This document shows, piece by piece, positions 7,630 through 55,276 of a DNA stretch of 64,000 bases. The notes under the pieces were generated by a model, which saw nothing but the letters and a program-made list of their open reading frames with translations, ran no database searches and was not told the DNA's origin. Position numbers and translations under genes: made by a program. Source of the DNA: Acinetobacter sp. GTDB lineage: Bacteria; Pseudomonadota; Gammaproteobacteria; Pseudomonadales; Moraxellaceae. The stretch covers positions 1 to 64,000 of the forward strand of contig JAITLL010000047.1 of NCBI GenBank assembly GCA_031277915.1, in the 5' to 3' direction. How positions within the stretch are numbered: position 1 is the first letter of the stretch; every line of letters starts with the position of its first letter.

Positions 7630-9038
7630 TTAAAAAAATATTACTCTCATTCATCGCTATTTTTACTGTTGTTAGTGGATTGATTATTTTCTACTGGCGT
7701 GATGTTCAATATAATCCAGATAAAGGAGATTTTTTCCTCTATTTTCTATTGTTGCCAGCAATTATCACATTGGCAATCTTGTCGCCTTGGCTAATCTATA
7801 GTGCTTATAAAAGCTACAAAGAAAAGAAAGAAAAAGCTGCAAATCAAAGCCAAGATGATGATAGTCAAAAACAAACAACTACACCTGATCAGCCTCTAGA
7901 ACAGTTAGATTTTCATATTTACTCTGCGTTTGCTATACATGCATTAGGTGAGAATGAAGCTATTGTTCAAGAAATACAAGATTTCAAAAGCCCAGATCTT
8001 GATGACCAGTTGTTAAACTCTTATGGATTACCTCTTTTATCTTATCGAATTAAAGATTTAGCTGAGTCGAGTGAAGAGGATTTTCAATACGTTGCTTCGC
8101 CAAGACAGATTCGTATTATGTCTTTAATAAGACATCAATTAGAACAAAATATAGAGAATCTGTACCATTTGGCTGAGCATTTAAAGCGTTCAATTTTATT
8201 TTATGAATCGCATCAGATTCGCGAATATCACATGCATCCTGCATGGGTAGATCCAAATTCTGAATATGACGATACAGAAACCCCTGTAGTTGAAGTACAT
8301 CGTTTAAATCGACTGAATTTACACATCCTTCTTCCAGAAGATTTATTGCATATATGGAATGATGAGCAAAGTAATGATTTGATTTTAGAGTTCTTTACCG
8401 AAATTGGCATTATCTCTCAGAAAGTTCATATCGAATATCACTTTTTGGGAGAACGTGTGGCTTATCAAGAATTTATTCATTTATTAAAACGTATTCAAAA
8501 GAAAGAGCATGAAGTGTTTCTCATGCTTGCTGTTGATTCAGAAATCGATCAAGACCTGATTGATGAAAAGTCTTGGATGGTCAAGGACTATATTCCGGCG
8601 GAGTTCGCTACAAGCTGCCTTATTGCAGATCCCTCTTTAAAAATTGAAGAACTTGAACCCGCTAAAAACTTAAAAATTGTGATCGGTCAAGAAAAAACAG
8701 CAAAAGTTCTTAATACTCTGAACTTAAATGAATTACCACAGTACGCGGGGGAAGAGCCATATGTACTTGTTGTTTCAGACCAGACAGATATAAAAGCAGC
8801 GAAGCATTTGCAGCAGCAAATTACACAAACTTCTGTTGAACCACATCACTTTATTTATGTGAAATCTTCATTGGGGCATACCCAGCATTTAGTTGATATT
8901 TATGGCTTTATGCTCAGTATGCATTTTCCTGAACATATCGTTCCTTTTGTCTTTGGAGAAAATACAGTGTCAGCACATACCTTTGTGCAGAGTGTCACTG
9001 AAAATTCAGAAGATGATGCGATGGTGTTGAATAGCTAA
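7626..9038 (+). CDS. T6SS-associated inner-membrane protein, Acinetobacter-specific
   Basis: The 470-residue product has two N-terminal membrane segments (about residues 5-24 and 36-60), a short charged linker rich in Lys/Gln, and a large soluble domain with no motif I know. Its position between tssG and tssM, joined to tssG by an ATGA overlap, makes a role in the membrane or trans-envelope complex likely. In Acinetobacter this slot holds one of the asa genes (asaB in my memory, not certain). No catalytic signature was seen. Confidence 0.8.
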   Translation: MIKKILLSFIAIFTVVSGLIIFYWRDVQYNPDKGDFFLYFLLLPAIITLAILSPWLIYSAYKSYKEKKEKAANQSQDDDSQKQTTTPDQPLEQLDFHIYSAFAIHALGENEAIVQEIQDFKSPDLDDQLLNSYGLPLLSYRIKDLAESSEEDFQYVASPRQIRIMSLIRHQLEQNIENLYHLAEHLKRSILFYESHQIREYHMHPAWVDPNSEYDDTETPVVEVHRLNRLNLHILLPEDLLHIWNDEQSNDLILEFFTEIGIISQKVHIEYHFLGERVAYQEFIHLLKRIQKKEHEVFLMLAVDSEIDQDLIDEKSWMVKDYIPAEFATSCLIADPSLKIEELEPAKNLKIVIGQEKTAKVLNTLNLNELPQYAGEEPYVLVVSDQTDIKAAKHLQQQITQTSVEPHHFIYVKSSLGHTQHLVDIYGFMLSMHFPEHIVPFVFGENTVSAHTFVQSVTENSEDDAMVLNS

Positions 9039-47714: not shown

Positions 47715-48098
47715 GTGCAAAAAATGGAAAATACTGCGGTTGATCAATTCGCAGAACTATTGGGTGTTCAAGTGCTGCATCGCAGTTTTGATGAAGCGCG
47801 TTGTCAGCTTAATGTAAAAGATGAGCATATGAATGCCTTGGGAGGCGTGCATGGTGGCGTCATATTTTCTTTAGCCGATATTGCTTTTGCGATGGCTTGT
47901 AATGCAGGGGATGCGCCATATACAGGCCTACAGGCTGATATTCGTTATATGAGCGGTGCGAAAGATAAGGTGTTATTTGCTACGGCAACTAAGGTTGGAA
48001 GTAGTAAAAAATTCGCGCATTATGAAGTGGTGATAACAGACGGTTTAAATAATAGAGTCGCTTTATTTACATCGACCTGTTACAGACTTGCGCCGTAA
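47715..48098 (+). CDS. paaI: hydroxyphenylacetyl-CoA thioesterase PaaI
   Basis: PaaI is a hot-dog-fold thioesterase that rescues CoA from dead-end intermediates. The 127-residue product has HMNALGGVHGGVIFSLADIA with the catalytic Asp, and VALFTSTCYRLAP at the end. GGGAG lies 6 bases before the GTG start at 47715; ATG 47724 has no such site. The last 17 codons and the stop are repeated, with silent changes, 4.2 kb downstream at 52264-52314. Confidence 0.94.
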   Translation: MQKMENTAVDQFAELLGVQVLHRSFDEARCQLNVKDEHMNALGGVHGGVIFSLADIAFAMACNAGDAPYTGLQADIRYMSGAKDKVLFATATKVGSSKKFAHYEVVITDGLNNRVALFTSTCYRLAP

Positions 48099-48133
48099 GA
48101 TATGGTTGTTTGATGGTTAGAGCCTGAGCAAAA
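48048..48133 (+). repeat. left copy of direct repeat (paaI 3' end plus flank)
   Basis: The last 51 bases of paaI match 52264-52314 at 47 positions. After a 12-base length difference, GTTAGAGCCTGAGCAAAA (48116-48133) matches 52320-52337 at 16 of 18. The repeat flanks the effector cargo. Confidence 0.85.
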
Positions 48134-48228
48134 TTTAACTAAATAAAAGATCTGTTACATCTTTTTAGATGCAGAGTAGCTTGTCCCTGATTTTGGAACT
48201 TGCCAAATCTTTGATGAACCATGGTGTG

Positions 48229-48924
48229 TTATTGAATCCATGACTCTTCTAATGGAAGTTTTTCAAATCGTTCTGCTGGAAGTAATATGCCTTTACTTGT
48301 TTTTCTATTGTGAAAATAAAAGTCGATATGGTGAGAAATAAGGTCATCAAATTTAAGTTGTTTTTGCCAAATGTATTTTATGAGGTAGACATGATAGCTA
48401 AAAAAATCTTCAAACTTTTTAAAATCATTTGAAGAACGTAAATAGCTTCCCATTTCATCCCAAAATTTTTGATCAGGATTCATATTTGCCATCAATGCGA
48501 CAAGGTTCATTGAATCAACTTCTTGAATTTTTATATGTTGAAAGTCGATATTGATTTCTAAAATCGCATCTTTGGTAGTTTTACCATTTTGATTAAACTC
48601 TTTTGCAATTAATAAGATGGTTGTCATTTCTGAAAAATGGCAAACGTCTTTTAAATTACAATATCTATAGTAGGTATTTTCTAATATCTGATCTAAATTT
48701 CTTTTATGTGATGTCTCTGTCATACATTCAATATAAAAACATTCAGCTATGAGGTAGTCGCCTGCTGAGGCAAAGAAACCAAAAGGAATTTTTCTCAGTT
48801 TTTGATAGTTGTCATCTATTTTTAAGATAATATTTTCCTTTTTATTGCCATAATGTAATACACCTCTTCTATCTGTTGCTAGAATGGCAAAATCATTTAG
48901 ATTAAAAGCTATAACTAAAGACAT
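48229..48924 (-). CDS. unknown protein with proteasome-beta-like (Ntn-hydrolase) N-terminus
   Basis: The 231-residue product begins M-SLVIAFNLNDFAILATDRRG. If Met is removed, Ser is residue 1, Asp 17 and Arg 19, the same spacing as Thr1/Asp17/Arg19 in proteasome beta subunits. GFFASAGDYLIAECF then resembles the proteasome GTMAGG...D...F block at the same distance. A Lys matching Lys33 is not clear (K28 or K34). The remaining 150 residues are Phe/Tyr-rich and unassigned. No signal peptide. It is divergent from the effector cassette. A self-processing or amidase role is speculation, and a non-catalytic fold relative is possible. Confidence 0.6.
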   Translation of the reverse strand: MSLVIAFNLNDFAILATDRRGVLHYGNKKENIILKIDDNYQKLRKIPFGFFASAGDYLIAECFYIECMTETSHKRNLDQILENTYYRYCNLKDVCHFSEMTTILLIAKEFNQNGKTTKDAILEINIDFQHIKIQEVDSMNLVALMANMNPDQKFWDEMGSYLRSSNDFKKFEDFFSYHVYLIKYIWQKQLKFDDLISHHIDFYFHNRKTSKGILLPAERFEKLPLEESWIQ

Positions 48925-49000
48925 AATAAGTACAAATATTTTTTTAATATATAATATAATTTAGCAAAAAATTAAGCACTTGATAAATAGAGAATTTAAA

Positions 49001-49417
49001 ATGGGCGGAAAATTTGTAGTTAGAGCAGGGCAACATAAGTTCGAAAGCGGTGAAAAAATTGTTTCACCTATGAATATATTACCTACTGCACCCAATAATT
49101 ATAGCCATAAAGTAAATTATAAGTTTGAATATACAGATGAAAATGGTCAAAAAATTGATCCACCTGAAAATTTTCATAAACAAGTGTTTGTTATAGAAAC
49201 AGATACTAAGAAGTTACTTGTACAAAGAAATCTTAATAATTCTAATGAGGACACAACACTACGATTTTATACAGCGGAGGCAAAACCATTTAAAGCATTA
49301 TTATTCAATAGTGAAAATATAAGAATGGATAAACCTGATGACATATTTTTTAATGAAGATGAAGTCGATAATACATCATCATTTGATGGTATTTCTGTAA
49401 CTGATAGTGATGAATAA
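49001..49417 (+). CDS. small acidic protein at head of the effector cassette
   Basis: The product from ATG 49001 (138 residues) begins GGKFVVRAGQHKFESGEKI, has a central beta-rich segment with YKFEYTDENGQKIDPPENF and ends in a strongly acidic Asp/Glu/Ser tail. The YTDENG turn recalls the transthyretin-like domains of T6SS spike and effector proteins. It lies 5 bases before the GH19 gene. A loading adaptor or chaperone role for the effector is an inference from position. I do not recognise the family. Confidence 0.65.
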   Translation: MGGKFVVRAGQHKFESGEKIVSPMNILPTAPNNYSHKVNYKFEYTDENGQKIDPPENFHKQVFVIETDTKKLLVQRNLNNSNEDTTLRFYTAEAKPFKALLFNSENIRMDKPDDIFFNEDEVDNTSSFDGISVTDSDE

Positions 49418-49422
49418 ACACA

Positions 49423-50835
49423 ATGGCACTAACTGAATATAAAATTAAAGTTGTTGATGCTAGCAACAAGCCTTTGCTGAACTTTCCTATGGCAACACGC
49501 TATGTTGGTGGGGATAAAAAAAATAATAAATTAACAAGTGATACTGAAGGTATTTTAACTTTTCAATCTGATGGTCGAGCCGTAGAAGTATTTGTGCTAG
49601 CGCCTATTGATAAAAATGGTCAACCAGATATGACCAAATTTAAAGAAGATAGCGACAATGATAATGCCTATTATCAAATTACGACGCTCAATGTGTTGAG
49701 AGAATTACCGTCTATCATTAAGTCACCTTATTTTTTGACTGACTATGGTATAGCAAAGACAAAATTCATATTTTATGAAAATGAACAAGACAAGAAAGTT
49801 TATTCATTACCTCTTACAGTGAAAGTTTCTTATTTAGTTGGTGAAGCTAAAAATTCTCCGCAGTTTATTGAAGTTACTCGAGAAGTAAAAAATGGTGAAT
49901 TAAATATTACGTCTATTTTACATAGTCGAATACAAGTTCACCCATTTAAACCTGATAATACTCCTTTTAAAACACCTCAAGGGTATACACCTCGATCAAC
50001 TACGCCAATAACTTTATCGGTTTACTTTGATATTAAAAGTAATAACTCGACTACTGAACCTGATGAGCCAGATTTATCTGTAAAAGTTCCGGAGGTTGGT
50101 GATATAAAATGCCTGACTTGTGGTAAATCATTGAAAATTGATCTTGATTTTATTATAAAGGTGGCTCCGAAAGCTAAGAAAGATTTTCAACAGGCTTTAC
50201 TAAACTTACCTAAATTCCTTAAGAAATATTCTAGTAATACTTGTAAAGATTTAGTACATATTTTGGCTCAAGGGAAAATTGAGACAGAAGAATTTAAAGC
50301 TTTAATTGAAAGTATGATTTATACCACTCGATCATACACAGGTAAGTCTCTATATAATATGATGAAAACAAATTTCACGAATGCTTTTAAAAGACATGGT
50401 ATGGAAAAGCTTACATTAGAGCAGAGGTACAAATATGTAGAGAAACATTTCTTATCAAATGATCCAGCGATTGCTCAATTCCTTTATTCAGTTCCTGAAT
50501 ATCCAAACAAAAACTATAGAGGACGAGGTCTAATTCATTTAACACACTTTGCAACATATGTTCGTTGTGCTAAAGAGACAGGTTTAGATATAGAAAAAAA
50601 TCCTGAATTATTACAAACTGATTATAATGCTGCTATTGAAAGTGCTACGTGGTTTTGGAAAGATAATAATATCAATAACATTACAAAGAAAGATAATAGT
50701 AAAATTAATGATGAAATACTTACGAATAAAGTAACTGTAGTTGTCAATCCTGGAATGAAAAAGGCAAAAGAAAGGCGAGAGGAAAAGTTAAAAATAGCAA
50801 CAGAATTTATAGCTAAGTATGGAGAGTGTAAGTGA
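49423..50835 (+). CDS. probable T6SS effector with GH19 (lysozyme/chitinase-like) domain
   Basis: The 470-residue protein has an N-terminal transthyretin-like domain (about 1-65; YKIKVVDASNKPLLNFPM), a second beta-rich part, a CLTCGK motif near 230, and a C-terminal GH19-type domain (about 260-450). GH19 features are ILAQGKIETEEF with Glu287 at the catalytic position (family HET/HES), NYRGRGLIHLTHFATY near 365, and the helix AAIESATWFWK. GH19 enzymes cut the glycan of peptidoglycan or chitin. There is no signal peptide, fitting T6SS export. The next gene overlaps it and encodes a secreted SH3-type protein, the usual immunity layout. The window holds no VgrG. Confidence 0.78.
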   Translation: MALTEYKIKVVDASNKPLLNFPMATRYVGGDKKNNKLTSDTEGILTFQSDGRAVEVFVLAPIDKNGQPDMTKFKEDSDNDNAYYQITTLNVLRELPSIIKSPYFLTDYGIAKTKFIFYENEQDKKVYSLPLTVKVSYLVGEAKNSPQFIEVTREVKNGELNITSILHSRIQVHPFKPDNTPFKTPQGYTPRSTTPITLSVYFDIKSNNSTTEPDEPDLSVKVPEVGDIKCLTCGKSLKIDLDFIIKVAPKAKKDFQQALLNLPKFLKKYSSNTCKDLVHILAQGKIETEEFKALIESMIYTTRSYTGKSLYNMMKTNFTNAFKRHGMEKLTLEQRYKYVEKHFLSNDPAIAQFLYSVPEYPNKNYRGRGLIHLTHFATYVRCAKETGLDIEKNPELLQTDYNAAIESATWFWKDNNINNITKKDNSKINDEILTNKVTVVVNPGMKKAKERREEKLKIATEFIAKYGECK

Positions 50836-51545
50836 AAAAATATATATGGATTCTATTTGTATTTTTATCTTTTAATGTATATGCCGATACAAATAAGTGT
50901 ATTAATTTTAAAAAGGATTATAGTCATTATAATGATGAAAATATGTATGATTTAGATGCTTACCTAACTGATTGTCATCAGAAATCTAAAAAAATAGAAA
51001 CTTTTGGATATTTTGGAGATAGCCCTAAAGTAAATTATTACTTTTTTCAAAAAATAGATGGCATTAATCGTTTATTTATTTCTACTTATGTTTTAACAGA
51101 TCAGTATGAAGAAAATCCTAAATACGTATATGAAGATGGTAAGTATAATTTCATGAAAGTATTTGATTGTTATGACTTTACTTGTAAAGCTAATAAAAAG
51201 ATGACTGATTTTTTTGGTGATGGGGCAAATTTAGTCGAAGTTAAAAGCTATAAAACAATGTGGAAATATCCTTATTCAGTTGCTAATGAAGTAAAAAAAG
51301 ACCTAAATTCCAATTTTTTTAAAAACTGGTGGAGTAATCAGTTAAAGTCCGGTGTTGTGAGAAATAAAACTGAAATTTATAAAGAGGCTGGGCTAAACTC
51401 AGAAAAATCTGGTTATCTTATTTCTGGTGACAAATTTAGTATTTCTGGTGTTTACTCTAGATGGTTAAATATTTCTTATGTTAATAAGAATCATAAAACC
51501 ACAACTGGTTGGATTCGTTGTGAAGATACGAATATTTGTAGTTGA
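50832..51545 (+). CDS. probable periplasmic immunity protein with SH3-like C-terminus
   Basis: The 237-residue product (GTG start, 4-base overlap with the GH19 gene) has a signal peptide (about 1-18, ending YA-DT), a Tyr/Asp/Lys-rich middle and a C-terminal SH3b-like segment (about 180-237; EIYKEAGLNSEKSGYLISGD, WLNISYV, TGWIRCEDTNIC). Periplasmic location and tight coupling to a wall hydrolase make it the likely immunity protein for that effector. Cysteines may form disulfides. No enzyme motif was seen. Confidence 0.72.
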   Translation: MKKYIWILFVFLSFNVYADTNKCINFKKDYSHYNDENMYDLDAYLTDCHQKSKKIETFGYFGDSPKVNYYFFQKIDGINRLFISTYVLTDQYEENPKYVYEDGKYNFMKVFDCYDFTCKANKKMTDFFGDGANLVEVKSYKTMWKYPYSVANEVKKDLNSNFFKNWWSNQLKSGVVRNKTEIYKEAGLNSEKSGYLISGDKFSISGVYSRWLNISYVNKNHKTTTGWIRCEDTNICS

Positions 51546-51698
51546 TTTTTAAGAATAATATAAATGGCTTGAAGCTTTTAAAGTGGCTAGGTCTGCTTTA
51601 AAAGCTTATCTTGTGAGTAATAGGTTTACAGTTTTTTATAATTCTAATTGATAGATTATGCTAATTTATTCCATGTTAAATTTTTAAAATATAAAAAG

Positions 51699-52196
51699 AT
51701 GTTAAATATTGAGATTAAAATTTTAAGTATCAACGAGCTTAAAGATTTCAGAACTATCAGGCTTTCCGCTTTAGAAAAATCACCAAAAATGTTTGGATCT
51801 ACCTATACCGCAGAGGTAGATAGACCTTCAATGTTTTTTGAAGCTTGCTTATCAAACTCAACAGTATTTGGTGTGTACCATAAAAATGAAATAATAGGTT
51901 TAGCCACATTAACACAAGAGATTGGAGCAAAATTTTCTCATAAAGCATATTTGTCGAGTGTGTTTATTGAGCCTAGATTTCAAAAAAAAGGTATTGCAAA
52001 TCGTCTACTTAATGCAGTCATTGAATATAGTAAAAAATATGTTGAACAAATTTTACTTACCGTTGCAGAAGACAATAAAGCAGCAATTCACCTTTATAAA
52101 AAACTTGGTTTTCAAATCTATGGACTTGAAGAAAAAGCACTAAAAGATAATGACGAATATATTGATGAAATTTTAATGAAGCTTTTTGTGATCTAA
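51699..52196 (+). CDS. GNAT-family N-acetyltransferase
   Basis: The 165-residue product has the GNAT acetyl-CoA site as SSVFIEPRFQKKGIANRLLN and the later VAEDNKAAIHLYKKLGFQIY, both typical of ribosomal-alanine or small-molecule acetyltransferases. ATG 51699 is preferred to the TTG 17 codons upstream; both have weak ribosome sites. It is A+T-rich like the rest of the cargo and lies just left of the second paaI end, so it probably arrived with the island. Acceptor unknown. Confidence 0.85.
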   Translation: MLNIEIKILSINELKDFRTIRLSALEKSPKMFGSTYTAEVDRPSMFFEACLSNSTVFGVYHKNEIIGLATLTQEIGAKFSHKAYLSSVFIEPRFQKKGIANRLLNAVIEYSKKYVEQILLTVAEDNKAAIHLYKKLGFQIYGLEEKALKDNDEYIDEILMKLFVI

Positions 52197-52263
52197 TTTT
52201 TTACTATTTCGAAAAAACTAATTTCTGACTTTCATTGTAAAAATTTGCATATTACGAAGTGTT

Positions 52264-52337
52264 AATAACAGAGTCGCTTTATTTACATCTACCTGTTACA
52301 GACTCGCGCCGTGATAGGCGTTAGATCCAGAGCAAAA
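52264..52337 (+). pseudogene. paaI: second, diverged copy of the paaI 3' end
   Basis: Bases 52264-52314 encode NNRVALFTSTCYRLAP plus stop, the same peptide as the paaI C-terminus, but with AAC for AAT, TCT for TCG, CTC for CTT, and TGA for TAA. No upstream paaI sequence is attached. Homology continues in the flank (52320-52337). It marks the right end of the inserted segment. Confidence 0.85.
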
Positions 52338-52432
52338 CTTATCAGGTACTTAACTTATAACCAAAATGATTAAGGCATAGGTTAATTCCGTTAAGTGAGT
52401 AGTCCGTACAACCTTTATGAATGCACTTCAGT

Positions 52433-53014
52433 TCAATAAGTAAAAATCTGAGTATTTCTAATTGGTTGATCAACCAAGTTGTATCTAAACTGCTGCATTA
52501 AATCTTTTGAAAGTGGTTGAGCTTGCTGTATCTGCATCATCAAAAGCTGTAAAAATTGTCCATGGCTAAACACAGCCAAATTCTCTTGGACATAATTTTC
52601 AGCCAATACCTTTAACTTCTCATGGAAAGCTTGAACCCGTATATATAGATCTTCAAAAGATTCTGCATCATCGGCATCTTTATGCTGATAATCCATTTTA
52701 TCCCAATAAGCATCTACCCAAACTTTACGGTCATCCATATTGGTATTGGCACACTTACGCTCAGACAAATAGCTAAACTCATGCAAATACTCATCTACTT
52801 CATAAGCGAGATTATATTTTTCCAAGAGTGGGGCAGCAGTTTGATGAGTGCGTAAATATTGAGACACAATCACATGATCAATTTCAGGCAGTTTTGAACA
52901 CAGTGCTTGCGCTTGTTTATGCCCATGTTCACTTAAAGCAATTGAAGCATGCGACAGGGTTTTTCCATTGATATTGGCTTCACTTTCAGCATGTCGGATT
53001 AGAAAAACACTCAT
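52433..53014 (-). CDS. histidine phosphatase family protein
   Basis: The 193-residue protein has the phosphoglycerate-mutase-like catalytic motif FLIRHAESEAN (His8 as phospho-acceptor), LSEHGHKQAQAL, SQYLRTHQTA (the Arg of the phosphate pocket) and the second His in VFSHGQFLQLL. The substrate is unknown; small members act on sugar phosphates or phosphoproteins. It is the first gene right of the island and converges on it. Confidence 0.9.
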   Translation of the reverse strand: MSVFLIRHAESEANINGKTLSHASIALSEHGHKQAQALCSKLPEIDHVIVSQYLRTHQTAAPLLEKYNLAYEVDEYLHEFSYLSERKCANTNMDDRKVWVDAYWDKMDYQHKDADDAESFEDLYIRVQAFHEKLKVLAENYVQENLAVFSHGQFLQLLMMQIQQAQPLSKDLMQQFRYNLVDQPIRNTQIFTY

Positions 53015-53259: not shown

Positions 53260-54048
53260 ATGGCATTAATTGATACTTCTGGCCTAGAACCATTTGCAGA
53301 TCTAATAAAAGAAATTTATGGAGATTTGGCTAAACCTGGCGTACAGAATGTGGGTGTTGCTTTAGGTGCTGTATTAGGGTTAGGCGTAACACTAATGTGG
53401 CCTATTATGTGGGCAAATGCGCGAGCTAAGATAGCTTTAGAAGAAAATCTTGAAGCATATAGAGATCGTATAAAAGACGTCCCTCCTGAGCAAATTTCTA
53501 TAGCTCCTCCAGAGGTTGCAATGCCTATTCTTGAAAAAATTGGTTATGTAACAAATGAAGAGTTAAGAAATCTTTATATTGAGCTTTTAGCGAAAGCTTC
53601 AATTAAAGATTTAAATAACCAAGCGCATCCAAGTTTCGTGAATATTATTAATAATCTATCTCCAGATGAAGCTAAGCTTATACAGCATTTAATTCCTATA
53701 AATAGCATACCTTTTATTAAAATACGTCTTAATCTACCAGATGGTAAAGGTGGTGTAGATATAGAAAGCTTAGTTGTTATAGTGTCTAATTTATCACTAG
53801 ATTTTCCAGAAAACCTCGATGCTTATATTAGTAATTTAGTAGGAGTGGGCCTTTTGCAGGTAAAAGAGGGTACTTATTTGACAGATGAGACTAAGTACCT
53901 TGCCCATATGGAATATTTTGAAAGTAAAAAACCTATTTACGACATTACTTATCGAAATATTGAAAAGGCGAATGAACCTTATGATGTAGAAAAAGGAATG
54001 ATCCAAGTAACTAAATTAGGGCATATGTTTTTTAAAGCAGTATATTAA
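53260..54048 (+). CDS. Abi_alpha (DUF4393)-like protein
   Basis: The 262-residue product has a hydrophobic segment near 30-52 (VALGAVLGLGVTLMWPIMWA), a charged helix with IKDVPPEQI, then the block PPEVAMPILEKIGYVTNEEL, LYIELLAKASIKDL, AHPSFVNIINNLSPDEAKLI. This order (PPEIAGPxLE, EELREMFAxLLA, HPSFVxIIxQLSPDEAxIL) is the signature I associate with DUF4393/Abi_alpha, a family named for abortive infection. Direct antiphage activity is not shown. It stands alone, closed by a strong terminator. Confidence 0.75.
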   Translation: MALIDTSGLEPFADLIKEIYGDLAKPGVQNVGVALGAVLGLGVTLMWPIMWANARAKIALEENLEAYRDRIKDVPPEQISIAPPEVAMPILEKIGYVTNEELRNLYIELLAKASIKDLNNQAHPSFVNIINNLSPDEAKLIQHLIPINSIPFIKIRLNLPDGKGGVDIESLVVIVSNLSLDFPENLDAYISNLVGVGLLQVKEGTYLTDETKYLAHMEYFESKKPIYDITYRNIEKANEPYDVEKGMIQVTKLGHMFFKAVY

Positions 54049-54120: not shown

Positions 54121-54430
54121 TTCTCAACTTAACAATAACCCCTTCATTATTAAGCCTTACTTTCTTAATGATTTAATTTAAAACAAATGTCATTTTGTGT
54201 GCTTGACTGCAAAAGGGTTGGGCACTATTCTTTGCCTGCTGGCCACATTGCCAGCCGGTCGTCGCGGACCGATTACAACAACATCAGAATTATTCCTTTC
54301 TGAGGGATAATTCTGTGTGAGCATCTCCTCGTCTCCTCCCGTAGCGGTAGGACGGGAGAGGGACACCTTCGGGTGTGCTGGTTGTTGTACCAGTCCGCGA
54401 ACCCTCTTCCGTTCTGCCACCCTAATTTTA

Positions 54431-54523
54431 ATGTCTGGCAGAACTCCCAATAAAAAGGAGTTGGCTTTGCACATCCATTATTTCTTGGCTCTCAATGCCA
54501 AAAGCTATAACGACACAGCTTAA
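54431..54523 (+). CDS. possible 30-residue ORF inside the antisense-RNA locus
   Basis: ATG 54431 opens a 30-residue frame (MSGRTPNKKELALHIHYFLA then LNAKSYNDTA). Its first codons lie inside the 3' arm of the GTTCTGCCA/TGGCAGAAC hairpin, so translation could be controlled by RNA structure. In phage P1/P4-type loci a small ORF of this kind is regulated by the antisense RNA. Coding is unproven and no ribosome site is evident. Confidence 0.35.
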   Translation: MSGRTPNKKELALHIHYFLALNAKSYNDTA

Positions 54524-54530
54524 AAATTAA

Positions 54531-54570
54531 AGCAGCTTGAACGTTCAAAGGTGTTCAGGCTTTAAGTCTT
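54531..54570 (+). terminator. terminator of the antisense-RNA locus
   Basis: GCTTGAAC (54535-54542) pairs with GTTCAGGC (54553-54560, one G-U pair), and AAAG/CTTT extends the stem. TTAAGTCTTTTTTA follows. A perfect 12-base palindrome TTGAACGTTCAA (54537-54548) sits inside it. Confidence 0.6.
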
Positions 54571-54712
54571 TTTTATTTAAAACTTAGCAACAACAAAACT
54601 TGAGATGTGCCAAGCACTGTCTTTGCGGCTTTGCTGTGCCTTTTTTTCTCCCAAAAAGGGCACAGGCTTTTTATCTCATTTAGAAACAACAAGAATTTAA
54701 AACGGTAAAACT

Positions 54713-55276
54713 ATGTCACATTTAGAAATCTCTTCCAAAAAACTACATGTCGTTCAAACGGCTATATGCCTATTTACAACAAACGGTTTTCACACCGCGG
54801 GTGTCGACTTGATTGTAAAAGAATCCGAAATAACCAAAGCCACTTTTTATAACTACTTTCACTCAAAAGAAAAGTTCATTGAAATGTGCATCGCTTTTCA
54901 AAAAAGCGTCATTAAAGACGAGGTGTTATCCATTATTTATTCAAATCGTTATTACTCCTCAAGTGACAAACTCAAAGAAATTGTGCGTTTACATGTCTGT
55001 TTTAATAGCTTATATCACTTATTACTCAAAGCCATTTTTGAAATTAGAGTCGTGTATCCGCAAGGCTACAGCATGGCGGTTGAATACCGAAAGTGGCTGC
55101 GCCATGAAATTTTTGATCTGATTTTTAGCGGAGAAATCCGCGAGCCAAAATTCGATGCCCACATGGTGGTAAACCTGATCGATGGTTTACTGCTACAGGT
55201 TTTAGGCTCGAACAGTTTGGAGGAAAGAGATGTGGTGTTGGATTGTTTTCTAAATGGTTGTGGTTTGCGTAAGTAG
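54713..55276 (+). CDS. TetR/AcrR-family regulator
   Basis: The 187-residue protein has a TetR N-terminal HTH (about 8-55; VVQTAICLFTTNGFHTAGVD, ESEITKATFYNYFHSKEKFI) and a helical ligand domain with no recognisable specificity. It starts 140 bases after the C4-like locus on the same strand. No divergent partner exists; the target may be its own gene or genes elsewhere. Confidence 0.9.
   Translation: MSHLEISSKKLHVVQTAICLFTTNGFHTAGVDLIVKESEITKATFYNYFHSKEKFIEMCIAFQKSVIKDEVLSIIYSNRYYSSSDKLKEIVRLHVCFNSLYHLLLKAIFEIRVVYPQGYSMAVEYRKWLRHEIFDLIFSGEIREPKFDAHMVVNLIDGLLLQVLGSNSLEERDVVLDCFLNGCGLRK

Follow-up and report, generated by a model that had tools for sequence, protein, structure and literature searches.

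We analyzed a stretch of 64,000 nucleotides of Acinetobacter sp. DNA (contig JAITLL010000047.1, hereafter the window) in which the 3′ end of paaI, a hotdog thioesterase gene, recurs beyond a set of cargo genes. We conclude that, in the Acinetobacter calcoaceticus-baumannii (ACB) complex, the stop codon of paaI borders a hypervariable chromosomal interval, which reaches to a block with a C4 antisense-type RNA and a TetR regulator gene, and that this interval holds swappable antagonism and defence genes. The window itself probably carries two alleles of the interval, stacked by recombination in paaI together with a microhomology joint on the other side. The borders are as follows:

47715..48098, forward strand: intact copy of the hotdog thioesterase gene paaI, bordering the hypervariable interval on the left (1.8e-23 to the NCBIfam PaaD/PaaI model, below the equivalog cut-off; 95–100% identity in 17 ACB genomes)
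54128..54718, forward strand: conserved block of ~600 bp, right border of the interval (80–91% in 17/17 ACB genomes)

Among the 176 Acinetobacter genomes searched, paaI matches of 95–100% were obtained in 17, the window's included, all belonging to the ACB complex; they include A. lactucae (2), A. nosocomialis (2), A. calcoaceticus (2), A. pittii (2), A. seifertii and A. sp. WC-141. In the 16 genomes compared, the interval between the paaI stop codon and the C4 block measures 3.0–9.3 kb (G093, whose contig ends behind paaI, was omitted). Less than 10% could be aligned in 109 of the 120 interval pairs and less than 50% in 116, and no cluster of open reading frames (ORFs) is common to all intervals. 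The flanks were compared in 10 genomes, namely the window and nine named loci, with the truncated L055 omitted: the 10 kb left of paaI were at least 99.9% alignable in all 45 pairs, and the 10 kb to its right averaged 15% (range 6–44%). Non-homologous cargo that includes defence genes thus lies between conserved flanks in many genomes, as at core-gene-bordered defence hotspots. An initial annotation, made from the window sequence alone, had anticipated other cargos at this locus, and the 16 intervals supply many alternative alleles; the two-ended state it envisaged occurs in only 7 of the 17 genomes.

The duplicated gene end and its surroundings in the window consist of these parts:

48099..48148, forward strand: paaI downstream flank, resembling the flank in some other ACB genomes (blastn: L077 853-898, 87%; L074, 83%)
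52204..52243, reverse strand: 3′ tail of a truncated gene, "c31" (cluster name of this analysis; 40–67 nt match in L076, L077, L078, L079, L080, L083, L084 and L091)
52237..52243: GTAAAAA microhomology at the joint between c31 tail and paaI remnant (with a second occurrence in the intact gene, 48004-48010; identical joint in L078 and L079)
52237..52314, forward strand: paaI 3′ remnant from nt ~290, with an internal 16-nt deletion (repeat search, blastn, gapped alignment)
52315..52440, forward strand: sequence following the old paaI end, matching the A. seifertii allele without a break (L083 860-985, 92.9% over 126 nt; 91.7% over 763 nt including the phosphatase)
52433..53014, reverse strand: histidine phosphatase, belonging to the second allele (PF00300 2.3e-27; adjoins paaI in L083)

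Read directly from the sequence, positions 48048-48098 and 52264-52314 agree at 47 of 51 bases, and the four changes (AAT/AAC, TCG/TCT, CTT/CTC and TAA/TGA) are all silent or stop-to-stop. A repeat search returned the duplicate as 54 nt at 91% with a spacing of 4216, and blastn against a small database of fetched loci gave E = 3.6e-15; chance is excluded as the source of the repeat. These results bear out the recurrence described by the initial annotation, as well as its continuation into the flank, where 16 of 18 bases are equal (48116-48133 and 52320-52337), and the A+T-rich character of the cargo in between (G+C ~0.26–0.33, versus 0.37–0.45 in the paa genes). The repeat is real, and the one slip in its description is the codon count: the segment holds 16 sense codons and the stop, not 17 and the stop. 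The repeat also begins earlier than described, at paaI nt ~290. In the gapped alignment, the pairing runs from paaI nt 293 and from 52239, with 16 nt deleted from the second copy, giving a full duplicate of ~78 nt plus flank with this single gap, the second copy continuing beyond the stop. A sequencing or assembly artefact, which had been named as a possible objection, is an unlikely source of the second end, because the joint between the gene tail and paaI nt ~290 is also present in two other assemblies, those of A. calcoaceticus DSM 30006 and ANC 3811.

In A. seifertii NIPH 973 (L083), the gene order is paaI, histidine phosphatase, c31 and onward, without the window cargo, and the stretch behind paaI matches the window's second copy without a break, at the values listed above. 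The window's second paaI end is therefore part of an allele that occurs in another genome without the cargo. This supports the initial annotation, which had sought an allele of that kind, and not all relatives carry the window segment. Under the stacked-allele reading, the left allele comprises a paaI end, an Ntn-hydrolase-like gene, a VgrG tail, a GH19 effector, its immunity gene, a GNAT gene and the c31 tail, and the right allele comprises the old paaI end, the histidine phosphatase, Abi_alpha, the C4 RNA and TetR. A DNA fragment from a relative would have been taken up and would have paired with the recipient in paaI (the homologous side), and its other end would have been joined through the short GTAAAAA match inside paaI (the illegitimate side). 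Such homology-facilitated illegitimate recombination would leave the truncated second paaI end, and later ordinary recombination across paaI and the C4 block would carry alleles between species. An illegitimate joint at one end is invoked because plain homologous exchange alone cannot leave a second, truncated paaI end. The homologous exchange between strains proposed earlier agrees with the allele-like divergence and the alternative cargos, but it needs this additional joint at the 7-nt microhomology.

Full-length c31 encodes 146–148 aa in L076, L077 and L083; the window retains 40 nt of its tail, cut where c31 and paaI both read GTAAAAA (7 nt). The same joint recurs in DSM 30006 (L078) and ANC 3811 (L079), where an aspartyl-protease-like gene takes the place of GNAT on the left side. 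As the joint is shared while its neighbours differ, it is old and has been passed around as the neighbours changed. At least one broken paaI piece is present in 7 of the 17 genomes, with four left joints (nt ~290, 288, 206 and 44), two of them within ~5 nt of each other: besides the window joint, pieces start at nt 288 in NIPH 2119, at nt 206 in ANC 4050, A. lactucae NRRL and KCJK9025, and at nt 44 in a second piece of DSM 30006, 141 kb from the intact gene. In A. nosocomialis GNU001 (L077), c31 is doubled (~435 bp, at 2134-2567 and 7664-8098) around 5.1 kb of effector cargo, and ANC 3811 carries a Lamassu-C4-TetR segment, absent from DSM 30006, with both ends within ~30 nt of the paaI stop position. 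The paaI fragments, the c31 doubling and the Lamassu segment are what one-sided homologous pairing with an illegitimate joint would leave. A second difference between L078 and L079, of ~3.5 kb, lies further right.

The distal piece in DSM 30006 is a near-complete broken paaI copy (L089 10206-10556), which adjoins another C4-TetR unit and, identified by eye, a serine dehydratase-like gene and an ORF resembling a reverse transcriptase. Ectopic transfer is one possible origin, but the right side of the copy corresponds to what normally stands on the right at the paaI locus, so that a large insertion or rearrangement is equally probable.

Other routes to a second gene end have to be weighed. The initial annotation saw no integrase, and indeed no tyrosine integrase (PF00589, E ≤ 1e-6) was found at any of the 17 loci in a search aimed at this one family, with no systematic coverage of transposases, serine recombinases or further types of integrase. 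The 17 genomes contain 104 PF00589 hits; among those on chromosome-sized contigs, the nearest lies at a distance of 133 kb. With no PF00589 match in the 17 loci, insertion of a phage or an integrative and conjugative element by a tyrosine integrase is unlikely. The extension of the repeat past the gene end had also been held to speak against a phage-type insertion; by itself it does not exclude one, because some integrating phages bring long replacement gene ends, and the better argument lies in the absent integrases combined with the differing joints. Site-specific integration could still be imagined as an integrative element or phage satellite that entered at the paaI 3′ end, supplied a replacement gene end and has since lost its integrase. 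Gene ends classically serve as attachment sites, paaI is made whole again by the insert, and two joints fall within ~5 nt; however, the left joints are spread over nt ~290/288, 206 and 44, similarity past the stop ends at differing distances, and the intervals have neither a tyrosine integrase nor a common ORF cluster, which together make this scenario decidedly unlikely.

A double-crossover allele exchange alone, between paaI on the left and C4 on the right, with the remnant produced by a chance tandem duplication and then a deletion, is an improbable explanation, although flanking homology exists on both sides. It leaves unexplained the microhomology joint and the c31 duplication around the cargo in GNU001. 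Movement of cargo and gene ends by an insertion sequence (IS) or transposon appears highly improbable. IS elements are common in Acinetobacter and an inverted repeat (17/19) brackets the window insert, but Pfam detected no transposase domain in the window cargo (the other loci were not searched for transposases), and L078 and L079 have the same joint without the repeat, their 13/19 being about the random mean. In favour of the double crossover, homologous exchange is several orders of magnitude commoner than illegitimate joining, according to the portion of text available to us (PMC5361080).

Several observations weigh against stacking by one-sided recombination, which we nevertheless prefer. 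The sample contains one genome per species only, and no donor tract is recognizable, the paa genes being about equally distant from each of the 10 named genomes (90–98% per kb). No paaI fragment was detected in 10 of the 17 genomes. The window joint is common to three genomes and gives no evidence of a recent local event, and the joints at nt ~290 and 288 lie within ~5 nt with different left partners, which could reflect either a preferred site or replacement of the left partner at a single old joint. The inverted repeat bracketing the insert (47995-48013 and 52195-52213) is equalled by only 3 of 300 random nearby 120-nt pairs. In L088 other sequence interrupts the C4 block itself, so some insertions do not lie left of the block, and the notion that every C4 site is a hotspot gave a noisy signal and is only partly borne out by the survey below.

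The right border contains two further features:

54340..54424, forward strand: C4 antisense-type RNA (RF01695, 62.3 bits, above the Rfam gathering cut-off of 45; fold z = −4.9)
54713..55276, forward strand: TetR regulator downstream of the C4 RNA (PF00440 2.3e-9; 41–77% at the amino acid level to TetR at the same place elsewhere)

The C4/TetR block is present in 17/17 genomes (on the paaI contig in 16, on a separate contig in G093; split in G070). TetR was rejected as a fixed right anchor, the protein being only 41–77% alike between genomes, versus 80–91% for the C4 block; this difference would be expected if crossovers fall in the block. Each of the 17 genomes has 16–26 C4 RNA matches, and each of 14 control genomes has none. 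To survey C4 sites, we used three genomes with 54 C4 loci (tandem copies merged; L123-L176) and 45 reciprocal locus pairs. A full-length TetR match starting 213–397 nt behind the C4 start accompanies 41 of the 54 loci, and in an earlier locus set a TetR match was near 29 of 30 fetched C4 loci. With one exception, the remaining loci (12 of 54) instead precede a Cys-rich lipoprotein-like ORF of 94–127 aa, of one kind by eye. Fewer genes are shared near C4 (134/260 within 3 kb left, 117/266 at 1.2–4 kb right) than farther away (290/441 at 3–9 kb left, 290/450 at 4–10 kb right); the outermost bins are as low (128/249, 171/303 and 139/333), which is due at least in part to the stretches ending at that point, so that the dip is not clean. 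Some C4 loci are conserved on both sides, and 7 of the 54 have no partner in the reciprocal comparison.

In three sets of paired C4 loci (L127/L157, L125/L148 and L132/L149), TetR is 41–46% identical between two species, as if swapped, and at G105:C1:3346721-3347302 three C4 RNAs stand head to tail, with a fourth ~240 nt on. A broader and rather unlikely possibility is that the ~20 C4-RNA/TetR units per ACB genome act as shared homology islands, the recombination arms of a distributed cassette system. If true, ~600 bp of alike sequence between unrelated DNA would let weapon and defence cassettes swap at, and perhaps between, many sites; a regulatory RNA family would double as recombination arm, and the paaI locus would be the clearest such site.

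The contents of the intervals are mixed. Pfam and PADLOC scans covered chosen proteins rather than every ORF, several proteins matched no family, and defence assignments are by profile only. Clear defence families occur in 5 of the 16 intervals: Lamassu LmuB in ANC 3811, Avs4/PD-Lambda-4 in A. lactucae NRRL B-41902, a CBASS-type SMODS nucleotidyltransferase in A. pittii ATCC 19004, an OLD/Gabija-like ATPase in G062 and, in the window, the following protein:

53260..54048, forward strand: Abi_alpha / PDC-S47 candidate defence protein (PF14337 2.7e-44; PADLOC PDC-S47 2e-102)

The A. pittii ANC 4050 interval has a weak NACHT match below the cut-off. Elsewhere the cargo includes an Rhs protein with a ResIII-type helicase (G110), JmjC and an ABC transporter (WC-141), LysR (NIPH 2119), MFS (G106) and a DUF4238 protein (G111). 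Relatives of the window's GH19 effector, found by similarity to it in a search that unrelated effectors could escape, occur in 2 of the 16 intervals (the window and GNU001, whose related cargo sits at another position within its interval), and an Rhs protein in 1. The proposal of a recurrent dock dedicated to effectors of the type VI secretion system (T6SS) is therefore rejected, and we conclude that the paaI site is a general antagonism and defence hotspot.

The window cargo between the two paaI ends contains:

48229..48924, reverse strand: Ntn-hydrolase-like protein (PF09894 connectase N-domain 4e-4, below cut-off; 93% in GNU001 L077)
48989..49417, forward strand: free-standing VgrG C-terminal tail (alignment to the C-terminal portion of VgrG ORFs: 30% in L269, 36% in L271)
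49423..50835, forward strand: predicted T6SS effector ending in a GH19 lytic domain (PF00182 1.1e-7; PHROG endolysin 8e-29; PDB GH19 enzymes, best 3.7e-8)
50832..51545, forward strand: predicted periplasmic immunity protein (PF08239 0.0016, below cut-off; gene overlaps the effector gene; 95% in L077)
51648..52196, forward strand: GNAT acetyltransferase (PF00583 2.4e-18; 90% in L080)

The effector module looks T6SS-like, with its detached VgrG tail, GH19 enzyme and periplasmic immunity protein. The tail protein, of 142 residues, precedes the effector and is the window's only vgrG linkage; in L269 an effector relative (35% over its length) lies directly behind a full vgrG, and in L271 there is an N-terminally related effector. 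The immunity candidate, of 237 aa, has a signal-like N-terminus (judged by eye) and an SH3-like C-terminus, so that a toxic domain stands beside an overlapping gene for a protein of the matching compartment, in agreement with the effector and immunity gene suspected in the initial annotation. To judge from these sequence features, the module is probably delivered by the T6SS into neighbouring bacteria and kills them through peptidoglycan cleavage. Relatives among the 176 genomes, the window included, number 7 for the effector (E ≤ 1e-8) and 8 for the immunity protein (E ≤ 1e-5). In GNU001, the 95% immunity gene follows a different GH19-type effector, and a 63-nt match (92%) just before it spans the tail of the window effector and the gene overlap. 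With one effector and one immunity gene, the window is not itself a sequential-displacement array.

L077 shows an orphan immunity gene next to the displaced end of an effector gene, and the same is suggested in L266 (G154) and L267 (G120), where broken C-terminal effector remnants directly precede 72% immunity genes, as in displacement arrays. The T6SS protein TssB (VipA) is encoded at 1786-2244 of the window, ~45 kb left of paaI, and the Ntn-hydrolase-like protein has distant relatives in 9 Acinetobacter genomes besides GNU001.

The following comparisons draw on the portions of the cited articles available to us. In V. cholerae, sequential displacement of T6SS effector genes leaves immunity-gene arrays, for which Kirchberger et al. 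propose homology-facilitated illegitimate recombination (PMC5361080). As in those arrays, gene ends remain beside new modules and the L077 immunity gene keeps a match to an effector tail; here, however, it is a metabolic core gene whose end forms the scar, the cargo is mixed, and the effector module has no full vgrG. In A. baumannii, T6SS effector loci were found via vgrG at seven genomic positions (PMC6833914). The paaI locus shares with them different effectors at a fixed genomic site and orphan immunity genes, but a module with only a VgrG tail would presumably be missed by the vgrG key. Like the core defence hotspots of P. aeruginosa (PMC10250203), the interval holds diverse defence genes between fixed core genes; unlike hotspots bordered by core genes, its right border is one copy of a C4-RNA unit present in 16–26 copies, and broken copies of the border gene mark the stacking. 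Group 1 C4-like small RNAs number ~20 copies per genome (PMC5320573), TTTR is a TetR-type regulator family (PMC9802203), and the TetR genes behind many C4 RNAs may be candidate TTTRs. The available portions of these two articles neither link the RNA and regulator families nor call them borders of variable DNA; here a C4 RNA and a TetR gene stand at the border. Titles and abstract openings contained no prior mention of the paaI site as a hotspot, which is weak evidence of absence.

Our results show a sharply defined and testable example of possible weapon and defence exchange without an integrase, between a core gene end and a multi-copy regulatory RNA unit. Its scars, namely broken paaI ends, broken or doubled c31 and effector tails, record the order of events. 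The T6SS-type module, with only a detached VgrG tail, indicates that vgrG-anchored surveys would overlook such modules, and the locus connects the C4 RNA family with TetR regulators and variable DNA.

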